From: Candidatus Levyibacteriota bacterium | Lineage (GTDB): Bacteria > Patescibacteriota > Microgenomatia > Levybacterales > GWA1-39-11 | Length of the DNA stretch: 32,064 nt | Direction: 5' to 3' | NCBI GenBank assembly: GCA_018062815.1 | Contig: JAGORM010000006.1 | Location: forward strand, 1 to 32,064 | In this document: one piece after another, positions 24,244-27,808 of the stretch | How positions within the stretch are numbered: position 1 is the stretch's first letter | Layout: each line of letters starts with the position of its first letter | Made by a program: the position numbers and the translations under genes | The notes under the pieces: generated by a model | The model's input: the letters and a program-made list of their open reading frames with translations, nothing else | Databases searched by the model: none | Told to the model about the DNA's origin: nothing

Positions 24244-24263
24244 AAATATAGGCATTCTCCTAT
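24244..24263 (-). terminator. Intrinsic terminator of ychF
   Basis: On the minus strand ATAGG-AGAATG-CCTAT (24248-24263) is followed directly by ATTTTTT. The 5-bp stem overlaps the ychF stop region. Confidence 0.45.
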
Positions 24264-25363
24264 TACCTTCCTATTTTAAATTCTGTAACATCCCCGTCTT
24301 GCATGACATAGTCGCGTCCTTCCATCCTGGCTTTTCCTGAAGTTCTTGCGTTTTTCCAACCATTCTGCTCAATAAAGTCAGCGTATGAAACGATTTCTGC
24401 CTTAATAAATTTATTCATAAAATCAGTATGAATGGTACCTGCTGCTTCCACTGCGTTACTGCCTTTTTTAATAGTCCATGCCTTAACTTCCACTTCTCCG
24501 CAGGTAAGATAAGAGATCAAGTCAAGCTGTGAATACGCTTTTTGAATTAACCGTTCAAGCCCTGATTTTTCAACCCCAAGCTCTTTCAAATATTCTTTCG
24601 CGTCTTCTATTCCCAACTCTGCAAGTTCCGACTCCACCTTTGCGCAAATGACAACTAACTGTTCTGAGGAAGTGCCCAGTATTTCTGAATATTTCTTAAT
24701 TGTTTCTTCATTTTTCACATCGGAATATTGATCTTCTGAAACATTTAAGATAATAACTTCGGGCTTGGATGACAATAGCTGTAGGTCTTGGATTAATTCT
24801 TTTTCTTCATCTTCAAGCACTACATTTCGAGCCGCTTTTCCTGTATTCATTTCTGAGATTAATTTATCTACTAATTTTTTCTTAGCCGGATCTGCTTTTA
24901 ATGTCTTTTCATTCACCTTGCTTAATGTCTGAAGGTCAGATAAAACTAACTCAGTAACTATTGTCTCGTAATCGCTCTTTGGATCCACTGCCCCTTCTTT
25001 AATAACATCTGCATCTTCAAATGCACGCACGACATGTGCCACAACTTTTACCTCCCTGATGTGAGACAAGAATTTATTTCCTAGCCCCGCTCCTTCACTG
25101 GCACCCTTAACTAAACCTGCAATATCAACAAATTCAATAAGTGCATTTTTAATAGGAGGAAGATGTGTCATACCGTCTTCTCTTTGAGTAATTTCAGCTA
25201 AGCTTTGAAGGCGCTCGTCAGGGACAGGAACAACACCAATATTTGGCTCAATTGTGGCAAACGGATAGTTAGCCGCCAACGCCTGCTGCTTCTTAAGTAA
25301 CGCATTAAATAACGTAGACTTACCAACATTTGGCAACCCCACAATTCCAACTGATAGGTTCAT
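24263..25363 (-). CDS. ychF: Ribosome-binding ATPase YchF (OLA1 family)
   Basis: YchF is an Obg-family protein that binds ribosomes and prefers ATP. The 366 residues match the family. The P-loop GLPNVGKST is at 9-17, DIAGLVKGASEGAGLG follows at about 78-93, and the G4 motif NVSE replaces NKxD, as expected for ATP specificity. The C-terminal TGS domain is present (about 280-366), with TCGEVEVKAWTIKKGS and MQDGDVTEFKIG. It starts 42 nt after the 172-aa membrane protein gene, with AAAGGA 11 nt before the ATG. Its first 14-19 bases recur upstream at 26531 and 27792. Confidence 0.97.
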   Translation of the reverse strand: MNLSVGIVGLPNVGKSTLFNALLKKQQALAANYPFATIEPNIGVVPVPDERLQSLAEITQREDGMTHLPPIKNALIEFVDIAGLVKGASEGAGLGNKFLSHIREVKVVAHVVRAFEDADVIKEGAVDPKSDYETIVTELVLSDLQTLSKVNEKTLKADPAKKKLVDKLISEMNTGKAARNVVLEDEEKELIQDLQLLSSKPEVIILNVSEDQYSDVKNEETIKKYSEILGTSSEQLVVICAKVESELAELGIEDAKEYLKELGVEKSGLERLIQKAYSQLDLISYLTCGEVEVKAWTIKKGSNAVEAAGTIHTDFMNKFIKAEIVSYADFIEQNGWKNARTSGKARMEGRDYVMQDGDVTEFKIGR

Positions 25364-25405
25364 ATCCCAACTTTTCCTTTCAGATTATTAATCATAACTT
25401 ATATT

Positions 25406-25924
25406 TTATACTCCAACCCTCAAAACACTAATATTTCCAGTCCAAGAAAGAATAAAAAGCACAACATAAACTGCTGTGAATAAAAAAATCAATAAATATA
25501 GGCCTGGCTCAGTAGCAAATAAACGACCCCAAACCGGTCTTTTATACCTTTTTAGCAAATTATTCTCATCCCTAAAATCAAATTCAACTTCTTTATTATT
25601 TCTAAAGTTTGCTCCCTGAGTTAACACTTTTACTCCTGACATTTTCTCTTCTTGATTGCGCGCACTGAGACTCCAAAATTTGTTAAATGCAAATCCACGA
25701 ATTGTTGTTTCCATCCAAATTATCGACAATAAAAAACCAATTACCGAAAGGGGAATTAAAACGTAAACATTGGGTCTGTCAGAGCCTAAAAAAATCCCAA
25801 TAGCCGCCAACAGGATTGTATTGGCTACTAACATAGTTTGAGAACGCGACCAAACTAAGTTTCCCTCGTATATCTTCAATTGTATTGCTTGCTCGTATGC
25901 AATTTGGTGCTCATCTTTTTTCAT
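25406..25924 (-). CDS. Small three-pass membrane protein
   Basis: The 172 residues have a helical cytoplasmic N-terminus (about 1-28), two close membrane segments (about 30-47 and 53-71), a cytoplasmic charged middle (about 85-130) and a third segment (about 141-162). The layout and the KIYEGNLVWSRSQTMLVANTI region recall RipA-type bacterial membrane proteins, a weak match. It lies 18 nt after the 156-aa gene but has its own extended -10 promoter 7 nt before the ATG. Function unknown. Confidence 0.6.
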   Translation of the reverse strand: MKKDEHQIAYEQAIQLKIYEGNLVWSRSQTMLVANTILLAAIGIFLGSDRPNVYVLIPLSVIGFLLSIIWMETTIRGFAFNKFWSLSARNQEEKMSGVKVLTQGANFRNNKEVEFDFRDENNLLKRYKRPVWGRLFATEPGLYLLIFLFTAVYVVLFILSWTGNISVLRVGV

Positions 25925-25931
25925 GAAGCTA

Positions 25932-25940
25932 ATTATAGCA
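25932..25940 (-). promoter_or_regulatory. Extended -10 promoter of the 172-aa gene
   Basis: TGCTATAAT (25932-25940 on minus) ends 7 nt before the ATG at 25924. No good -35, as expected for an extended -10 promoter. It lies in the 18-nt gap after the preceding gene. Confidence 0.6.
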
Positions 25941-25942
25941 GA

Positions 25943-26413
25943 CTATGGGAAGGTTATGGGATCGATATTGTATTCTCTTATCTTTTTATCAAACCAATCC
26001 TTTTCTTCACCTTCAAGCGCCTTCATGAATGACTTTATGGTTAACTCCATTCTTGATTTAATCCTAATTACATTCCATCCTTTAGTTCTAAAATTATAAT
26101 TGTTCCTTGCATAGGTTAAATGCGAAACTTGTTTATTGGTTTTTTGTGACAAATTACTGAGACCTGTCTTTGAGGGACGAAATTTATTACCGGGATGAAT
26201 ATAGTCAAGAGCAATAATATCGTCAGATTGGCTACGATTTTTATAGAAGAAATCAAACAAAGTCCTACTATGAATCGCGAAAGATTCAATAATCATGTTC
26301 TTTAATAGTTGCTCTTGAATAGGAGACGTTAAGAACTCGCTGGTTCTCCTAAACATCATGAATTCATAAATTATGTGTTCTACCGCTTTTCTTCTTTGTG
26401 TTTTAGTTTTCAT
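25943..26413 (-). CDS. Hypothetical helical protein, 156 aa (possible HEPN-like)
   Basis: I do not recognise a named family. The protein is mostly helical and starts with a basic MKTKTQRRKAVEHIIYE. The IESFAIHSRTLFDFFY and VSHLTYARNNYNF motifs are typical of a widespread uncharacterised bacterial family that looks like HEPN-type helical bundles, but a canonical C-terminal R-x4-6-H motif is not obvious (only RKAVEH near the N-terminus). Its neighbour, the 172-aa membrane protein, is 18 nt downstream. Both lie between the repeated ychF-like module at 26515 and ychF itself. Confidence 0.5.
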   Translation of the reverse strand: MKTKTQRRKAVEHIIYEFMMFRRTSEFLTSPIQEQLLKNMIIESFAIHSRTLFDFFYKNRSQSDDIIALDYIHPGNKFRPSKTGLSNLSQKTNKQVSHLTYARNNYNFRTKGWNVIRIKSRMELTIKSFMKALEGEEKDWFDKKIREYNIDPITFP

Positions 26414-26473: not shown

Positions 26474-26547
26474 TTGAAGCTAAATTCTAAGGTTGGGTTA
26501 GCAACCTGACTATCCCGACGCTTAGGTTCATGATGGATATTTTACCA
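26474..26547 (-). repeat. Repeated promoter-start module, copy E1
   Basis: Read on the minus strand: TGG-TAAAAT extended -10 (26539-26547), 7 nt, ATG at 26531, then AACCTAAGCGTCGG. The 33-bp block 26515-26547 matches 27776-27808 at 26 positions. The exact 12-bp block ATTTAGCTTCAA lies at 26474-26485, 47 nt after the A of the ATG. The codons from 26531 read MNLSVGIVRLLTQP then TAG; YchF starts MNLSVGIVGLPNVGK. Between the blocks is a 6-bp hairpin AGGTTG/CAACCT (26490-26507). The rest of the 265-bp gap (26414-26678) holds no convincing gene. Confidence 0.6.
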
Positions 26548-26678
26548 CAAGTAAAGATGTTTATTGTCTTTTAGAGGACGCTTTTAGCAACTCTAATAGC
26601 CTGTGCATGATTACCTCTAACTTCTATCCACAATTTAGTCTTAAAACACCACAAGTAGTAGCAAGTAACCGCGACAAA

Positions 26679-27134
26679 CTATAAAGTCTTACTATTTAAA
26701 ACCTGTTCAATTAAAAGTAGTTGGCTTTTGGAAATATTAGGTAAATTTTTGAGGGTAAAAAATCCATATTCTGAAACCTCAGCGGACGGTTTAAATTCTC
26801 CCCCCATAAATTTCCCCGTAACTGTTATGTCCAACCTAGACGAATTTCTATCAGTTCTAATTCGTACCTCTTCATCCGCGCTCACAATAAACCCTGACTC
26901 CTCCTCTATCTCCCGCTCTAATCCCTCTAGCGGATGCTCGCGAGCTTTCATATATCCACCCGGAAGACTCCACACTGGTCCTGACCTGTAGGTGTGTTTA
27001 AAAAGAAGAACTTCATTTTTGTCATTTGTAATAACACCCGTTATTCCAACTAAAAATTGGGACTGAAACAAACGCATGATAAAAAGTTGAAGACCTGTAG
27101 GAAGTGAAAGTTTTTGCCAAAGTTTACCAAGCAT
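26679..27134 (-). CDS. NUDIX hydrolase
   Basis: NUDIX enzymes hydrolyse nucleoside diphosphates linked to another group. The 151 residues contain a perfect Nudix box at 60-82: Gx5E (Gly60-Glu66), then RE at 74-75, EExE-type acid cluster and SGF (80-82). It is preceded by VWSLPGG. The N-terminal SLPTGLQLFIMRLFQSQFLVGITGVI region suggests an ADP-ribose or NDP-sugar type, but the substrate cannot be set. It begins 5 nt after the LapA-like gene and is probably co-transcribed. In frame after the TAG stop, 35 more codons stay open (26571-26678). Confidence 0.9.
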   Translation of the reverse strand: MLGKLWQKLSLPTGLQLFIMRLFQSQFLVGITGVITNDKNEVLLFKHTYRSGPVWSLPGGYMKAREHPLEGLEREIEEESGFIVSADEEVRIRTDRNSSRLDITVTGKFMGGEFKPSAEVSEYGFFTLKNLPNISKSQLLLIEQVLNSKTL

Positions 27135-27139
27135 GTTTT

Positions 27140-27484
27140 CTACAAGGATTTATCATCAGACGGAAGATTTGCTGCTGTTTCAAGTCTGGCGTTGGTTATT
27201 TCTAGCTGGTGAATTTGCCTGAGCAGCTCTGCGTTTTCTTTTTTATAGTCTGTAATCTTGTGTTCTTTTCCTCGCATCGCAAATCCTGTCCCAATACTTT
27301 TTCCCATAATAACAATCCAGGAAAAAATAAGTCCCACAAGAAGTGCGCCAATAACAACCATGTAGATAGGGATTGATAAGGAATAAGTTAATAGATTAAG
27401 TGTAACAGATCCTGTGTTCTGTGTTGCAAAAAATGCAATAATGAGTCCTAGAAAAATTGTTGCAATAAGTGTTGTGATATACAT
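27140..27484 (-). CDS. LapA/DUF1049-like membrane protein
   Basis: The 114-residue product from the ATG at 27484 has two membrane segments (about 3-23 and 36-60) with FFATQNTGSVTLNLL between them, the family signature of LapA (lipopolysaccharide assembly A)-domain proteins. A cytoplasmic helix with coiled-coil character follows (about 75-104, ITDYKKENAELLRQIHQLEI). A GTG start at 27496 would add four residues. LPS assembly need not apply here; in non-LPS bacteria these proteins have no settled role. It heads the pair with the NUDIX gene. Confidence 0.7.
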   Translation of the reverse strand: MYITTLIATIFLGLIIAFFATQNTGSVTLNLLTYSLSIPIYMVVIGALLVGLIFSWIVIMGKSIGTGFAMRGKEHKITDYKKENAELLRQIHQLEITNARLETAANLPSDDKSL

Positions 27485-27496
27485 ATCATACCACAC

Positions 27497-27731
27497 ATGA
27501 GGTATTAAGAAGTGGCTTATTCGTGTTTTCGCTCATAATACGCTTCTGCCTGCTCAAGAGTTACAGTAATAATTCTTTATGAGGATTGTTATACCATGAC
27601 GTAAATCAAAAATTTACTTGCCAATCTTAAAAAGATGTTTTTTTACGAATTGGAGACTAGCCTTCCCTATCTGCCCCAATCTATTTATTTCAATGATAAC
27701 CCTCTATTTTCGCAAGGATGACAAACGCAAA
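27497..27731. other. Gene-free stretch upstream of the LapA-like gene
   Basis: This is most of a 380-bp gap without a gene of usual size. It holds two hairpins (27601-27617 and 27624-27636) and a short run of sense codons on the minus strand (27517-27573, ITVTLEQAEAYYERKHE then stop) with no start. No tRNA, SRP RNA, RNase P RNA or tmRNA was recognised. The neighbouring module E2 could transcribe through it. Confidence 0.4.
27601..27644 (+). terminator. Two AT-rich hairpins followed by a T-run
   Basis: GTAAAT/ATTTAC (6 bp, 27601-27617), then ATCTT/AAGAT (5 bp, 27624-27636), then GTTTTTTT (27637-27644). It looks like a + strand terminator, but no + strand gene is seen upstream. Confidence 0.3.
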
Positions 27732-27808
27732 TTGAAGCTAAATGGAACAAATAATATGTTTCAGTCTCGCAGGTTCCGACTGATAGGTTCATGAAGGTAA
27801 TTATACCA
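27732..27808 (-). repeat. Repeated promoter-start module, copy E2
   Basis: On the minus strand: TGG-TATAAT extended -10 (27800-27808), 7 nt, ATG at 27792, then AACCTATCAGTCGGAACC. The first 14 bases from the ATG equal those of ychF. The 12-bp block ATTTAGCTTCAA is at 27732-27743. Between the blocks GGAAC and GTTCC can pair. From the ATG, 34 codons stay open (MNLSVGTCETETYY...), with no similarity to YchF after residue 6. Confidence 0.6.

Follow-up and report, generated by a model that had tools for sequence, protein, structure and literature searches.

The window analysed here, the whole 32,064-nucleotide stretch of a Candidatus Levyibacteriota contig, contains two related sequences, E1 and E2, that are very probably the decayed attL scars of two mobile elements integrated into the start of ychF by means of a large serine recombinase (LSR) with attP inside its own gene. 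The scars and the genes that surround them are listed in Table 1.

Table 1. Probable scars, putative remnants and neighboring genes at the ychF locus of the window
Feature	Position	Strand	Basis
E1: former ychF promoter TGGTAAAAT, ATG at 26531, first ~19 nt of ychF; putative left half of attL scar	26515..26547	-	
E1: putative remnant of serine-recombinase C-terminal tail (LEFSFKFKLPTTRS..., frame +2), includes ATTTAGCTTCAA	26451..26512	-	model without own genome
E2: former ychF promoter TGGTATAAT, ATG at 27792, first ~19 nt of ychF; putative left half of second attL scar	27776..27808	-	
E2: putative decayed recombinase tail VPFSFNLRLSSLRK*RVIIEINRLGQIGKAS, frame +2, internal stops	27666..27774	-	peptide and DNA models
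LapA-domain gene in the E2-E1 interval; either cargo or an old neighbor	27140..27496	-	
NUDIX gene in the E2-E1 interval; either cargo or an old neighbor	26679..27134	-	
156-aa gene, directly behind E1	25943..26413	-	
Gene for 8xMP-family membrane protein, probable cargo, in the E1-ychF interval	25406..25924	-	
Probable attR remnant: last codons of lost recombinase (KEKLGYE, frame +2), now ychF ribosome-binding region	25364..25386	-	short similarity
ychF, intact target gene downstream of E1/E2, putatively regenerated start ATGAACCTATCAGTTGGAAT	24263..25363	-	

E1 and E2 as copies of the ychF 5' end

The 33-bp blocks of E1 and E2 are identical at 26 of 33 positions (79%), and on the minus strand both read, as the earlier note had it, as a -10 box of the extended type (TGGTAAAAT in E1, TGGTATAAT in E2), 7 nt and an ATG. 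The second block reported there also stands: 15 bp around the 12-bp ATTTAGCTTCAA lie in register in both copies, at a spacing of 1258 vs 1261, a 3 nt difference. Within the window the pattern is confined to these two sites (0 matches in 100 shuffles). Outside its own genome the block was matched once in the 60 genomes searched, in G038, at the start of an intact ychF (TGCTATAAT...ATGAACCTATCGGTTGGGATAG, reading MNLSVGIV). The ychF of the window itself begins ATGAACCTATCAGTTGGAAT, the first 19 nt being common to E2 with one mismatch, and many relatives have a promoter of the same kind directly before ychF. Among named organisms, the closest ychF sequences come from Candidatus Levyibacteriota (Microgenomates group). 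Together the matches to the ychF start identify E1 and E2 as copies of its promoter and start; by homology each appears to consist of the promoter, the ATG and ~19 coding bases joined to a conserved ~110-nt tail code, agreement of attL with ychF reaching about nucleotide 19.

With models trained without the own genome, E1 and E2, tested INDEPENDENTLY, are the sole significant sites in the 32 kb, and the next match is the ychF start. E1 is found at 26531-26451 with an E value of 3.4e-11 (1.3e-8 when its closest cousin, in G066, is also removed), and E2 at 27792-27666 with 4.7e-5 by the DNA model; the peptide model, likewise made without the own genome, finds E2 at an i-E of 2.9e-6 and E1 weakly, at 0.01.

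Leaderless starts seem to be common in this organism. The start of the 8xMP gene (25920-25940) has the same architecture as E1 and E2, TGCTATAAT followed by 7 nt and ATG, and its promoter shares 90% identity over 21 nt with that of E2.

Recurrence upstream of ychF in relatives

DNA upstream of ychF was gathered from ~70 genomes of the order, the compared genomes being drafts. Scanning this DNA (351 kb) with a 22-nt matrix of the ychF start gives 22 additional copies ahead of the gene in its own orientation vs 2 in reverse, and many of these then carry a second, shared sequence that is not ychF and that reads, in frame +2 from the ychF ATG, as PFxFKxKLPxPRKxRIIxERDxxGRIIHS; across relatives the consensus is PFxFxxKLPxPRxEREIxxRDxxGRIxHS. 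The 12-bp block ATTTAGCTTCAA is part of the code for this tail peptide, within its F-S-F stretch. The further copies that the earlier note proposed to look for are thus present upstream of ychF in relatives and are found nowhere else in the own genome (885 kb).

In the order, 13 of the 82 genomes match one version of the tail peptide, with E2 weakly among the matches (E 0.04); in the class, the tail-peptide profile has matches in 54 of 233 genomes, in 51 genera, often with 2-3 copies 1-3 kb apart. ychF was located in 50 of the 54 genomes, and wherever peptide and ychF share a contig the peptide lies upstream on the same strand in all but G180, a weak match; the two copies in G132, a single contig, count as upstream only if that contig is circular. 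In the fetched regions all 59 peptide copies share the strand of ychF; since these regions are mostly upstream DNA, strand and not side is the fair test of linkage to ychF.

A number of other irregularities occur at the same locus. A short palindromic repeat (~CCTTCGACnnnnCTCAGGA) is repeatedly inserted inside scars (L135 of G055 near 2720, L144 of G053, L158 of G066 near 2900) and also lies between promoter and ychF start in the leaders of L097, L100, L105 and L129. In G001, G005, G051 and G053 (L093, L125, L148 and L144) a near-perfect ychF start, MNLSVGIVGLPNVG, lies 146-154 nt ahead of ychF; next come GGCCCC and a hairpin-like stretch that they share, CGCGTCGAAGGGGCGTTTATACGGGGC, and then the second, functional start, the unit forming a recurring short upstream ORF. 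Behind the scar, G001 (L093 -3586 to -186) and G053 (L144 -3616 to -222), which belong to different families, have in common an insert of two minus-strand genes (393-395 aa + 751 aa). An NYN-domain-like gene stands directly before the scar in L173 (G005) and L222 (G276), of two orders, with sequence similar up to the core. Assembly breaks fall at the ychF start or a short way before it in G063, G031, G015, G054, G006, G066 and G005:C42, as would be expected if strains within one sample differ there.

The tail peptide and the large serine recombinase

The tail shows the substitution pattern of coding DNA, with 0.25, 0.17 and 0.48 differences per site at codon positions 1, 2 and 3, and 6 of the 59 tail copies have an in-frame stop, whereas each of the alternative frames is interrupted in 54 of them. 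Counted from the ychF ATG, the peptide almost always lies at a distance of 2 modulo 3 (35, 41, 44, 47, 56, 74, 86 ... nt; 22 of the 24 best cores), and the reading frame therefore passes through the ychF start.

A gene that enters the ychF start in this same frame +2, directly upstream of ychF, encodes an LSR in G160, G199, G132, G273, G198, G276 and G228, and 3' pieces of such a gene lie upstream of ychF in G084 and G033. The LSR has the Pfam domains Resolvase, Recombinase and Zn_ribbon_recom and is annotated as an integrase in PHROGs. The 13 recombinase pieces all share the strand of ychF, and 9 of them end at its ATG. In G227 a single ORF, itself broken at the N-terminus, runs through recombinase, ychF-like core and tail peptide and is the only contiguous LSR-tail ORF. 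Used as query against 374 genomes, it gives 33 other LSR matches, without the tail, whose alignments stop at residues 371-407 of 449, where the recombinase meets ychF, and a fragment in G183 that matches the tail alone. LSR matches ending at the junction, the fusion ORF and the tail-only fragment together indicate that the tail peptide is the C-terminal tail of the LSR, apparently severed at the ychF core. The tail alone has no match in Pfam, and no LSR is found in the window or its genome (G000) at E <= 1e-20, the window retaining only the tail.

AlphaFold2 models the tail of the G227 protein as a disordered linker and a short beta-hairpin (mean pLDDT 73, the last two blocks 89 and 80). The nearest solved structures to the recombinase are LSR-DNA complexes; one of these bears the title autoinhibited phiC31 integrase on attL and by analogy might offer a lead on a possible role of such a tail. 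A tyrosine recombinase was also considered as the agent and rejected; about two conserved copies are present in nearly every genome, and none lies beside the scars.

The tail also bears on a simpler origin of E1 and E2, in which the 5' end of ychF was partly duplicated, in tandem or dispersed form, and the copies then decayed, no site-specific recombinase taking part. Short partial ychF copies do occur just upstream of the intact gene in some genomes, an internal ychF fragment (STLFNALLK) just before ychF in L143 of G040 and a truncated 100-aa piece in G250 (G250:C16:51191-51490). Duplication, however, leaves unexplained the shared non-ychF tail with its coding pattern and fixed frame, as well as an LSR that stops at the ychF start with precisely this tail missing, and is considered very unlikely.

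A probable severing of the integrase by its own integration

For the preferred reading, site-specific integration by the LSR, sequence comparison establishes the homology to ychF, the homology of the tails, the class-wide link to ychF, and an LSR ending tailless at the ychF start with the tail at the far end; from these we infer the recombination reaction, which of the two insertions came first and any consequence of losing the tail. The attB site would be the first ~20 bp of ychF, and attP would lie within the 3' end of the LSR gene, as ~19 bp that match the ychF start and are read in frame +2 for the LSR and in frame 0 for ychF. Integration would then create, at the far end of the element, an attL composed of the old ychF promoter, the ychF start and the severed LSR tail, and, at the other end, an attR in which the tailless LSR, having lost ~55 C-terminal residues, reads into a regenerated ychF start. 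In the window's genome the recombinases and most of each element would since have been lost, leaving a few genes behind former ychF promoters. Because both E1 and E2 carry promoters, ychF presumably regained a promoter between the two insertions; in G071 and G122 a promoter precedes a GGGAT-type end at ychF.

A remnant of attR is probably also retained in the window, as the sequence that precedes ychF (AAAGGAAAAGTTGGGAT) translates in frame +2 to KEKLGYE, similar to the recombinase ends EKLGHEP and NIGYEL. GGNT before the ychF ATG is commoner in loci with scars (10 of 34 vs 4 of 53, p 0.014).

Mobile elements and their cargo

Intact elements in relatives are ~6-19 kb and carry an LSR that has Resolvase, Recombinase and zinc-ribbon domains; where the recombinase is complete, scar and ychF are about 7-19 kb apart, and in G084 they are 5.6 kb apart. 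The ychF start is found at both element ends, and scars and LSR are linked to ychF on its strand. The G198 element has terminase subunits and an HTH_17/MerR-like protein adjoining the recombinase, and other cargo includes a primase-polymerase in G273, methyltransferases in G132 and G198 and a ThsB-like TIR protein in G160, which suggests phage-satellite-like elements with defense cargo. No free circular element was found in viral contigs. Large cargo genes are present at L208 5226-9244 (G160), L214 8937-12797 (G198) and L222 4242-8697 (G276), part of them matching defense families (ThsB-like TIR, Ppl-like, methyltransferases) and the rest having no match.

In the window E2 is followed by the LapA and NUDIX genes, and E1 by the 156-aa and 8xMP genes. 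A homologue of the 156-aa protein, 85% identical, is encoded directly behind the matching scar in G066, of another family, which fits transfer; the protein has no match in phages. The LapA-NUDIX pair is also found upstream of ychF in G058 and G276 and is thus possibly an old neighbor rather than cargo.

Arrays of 2-3 scars, 1-3 kb apart, with 1-2 genes each and mostly no recombinase between them, resemble integron cassettes, short gene units gained successively at one chromosomal site behind a resident promoter. An integron-like system, in which an enzyme supplied in trans would swap small recombinase-less cassettes at the ychF start, was accordingly considered and was dropped once the recombinase upstream of ychF was found. 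Intact members are, however, ~6-19 kb long with their own LSR at attR, the short cassettes are better read as eroded elements, and the scars show neither an integron integrase nor a folded attC-like site (there is no consensus fold), nor any adjacent tyrosine recombinase. Cassette exchange is therefore improbable to much the same degree as duplication.

The reading that the earlier note placed before insertion ends, a family of small leaderless RNAs or of leader peptides under the conserved promoter, is the least probable of the three: although the extended -10 box stands 7 nt before the ATG in both copies and the promoters may still work, E1 and E2 match no Rfam family, the stems proposed for them find no support (short-fold z-scores of -1.7 for E1 and -0.4 for E2), RNAalifold yields 0 consensus pairs in 14 homologues, and the frame-0 peptides are short and unconserved past the ychF part, conservation belonging to the +2 frame. 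The promoter-plus-start module is instead that of ychF, its promoter and start codon, and the conserved distal block is the serine-recombinase tail code in another frame. The earlier interpretation is thus supported in part, its last suggestion, the ends of insertions near ychF, having been right.

Comparison with known systems

Suicidal integrases have been described as exclusively archaeal tyrosine recombinases (SSV, pTN3 and pT26-2 families; PMC8371274). As in those systems, where attP lies inside the integrase gene and integration splits the gene between the element ends, the 33 LSR matches end at the ychF junction and the tail is found at the other end. Unlike them, the ychF elements employ a serine recombinase, not the tyrosine recombinase (Phage_integr_3, PF16795) of the SSV type, in a bacterial host (Patescibacteria), and they insert at the start of a protein gene, not into a tRNA gene; moreover the LSR loses only its C-terminal tail, its catalytic, recombinase, zinc-ribbon and coiled-coil parts staying together. 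The ychF LSR would thus work like a suicidal integrase but is not a member of the SSV type.

With the large serine integrases phiC31, Bxb1, TP901-1 and LI/A118 it shares the Resolvase, Recombinase and zinc-ribbon domains. In the open-licence literature, where absence carries little weight, no report was found of a serine integrase with attP inside its coding sequence and tail loss, and nothing matching on split serine integrases or on serine recombinases or integrons of Patescibacteria. Prophages and satellite prophages of pneumococci (PPH005, PhiBM6001.4) are likewise inserted just upstream of ychF, but their attB is an intergenic 26-bp site (PMC8637289, PMC10383233) and not the ychF coding start, the host is unrelated, and no split integrase has been described for them.

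Significance

A bacterial serine version of the suicidal integrase looks to be new, a recombinase that appears to split itself in Patescibacteria, whose mobile elements are little studied. The ychF start would be an unusual dual-coded attachment site inside a conserved gene, and its scars are a marker by which mobile elements and their cargo can be found in genomes of Patescibacteria; an orphan repeat of promoter plus ATG in a gene-free gap can thus be an integration scar. A wider proposal, to which an even chance is given, is that class-wide elements of the Microgenomates encode an integrase that severs its own tail on integrating through ~19 dual-coded bp, that tail loss is the switch between integration and excision, and that successive insertions pile up cargo including defense genes. 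The ychF LSR system would offer a direct test of control by an integrase tail over the direction of recombination.
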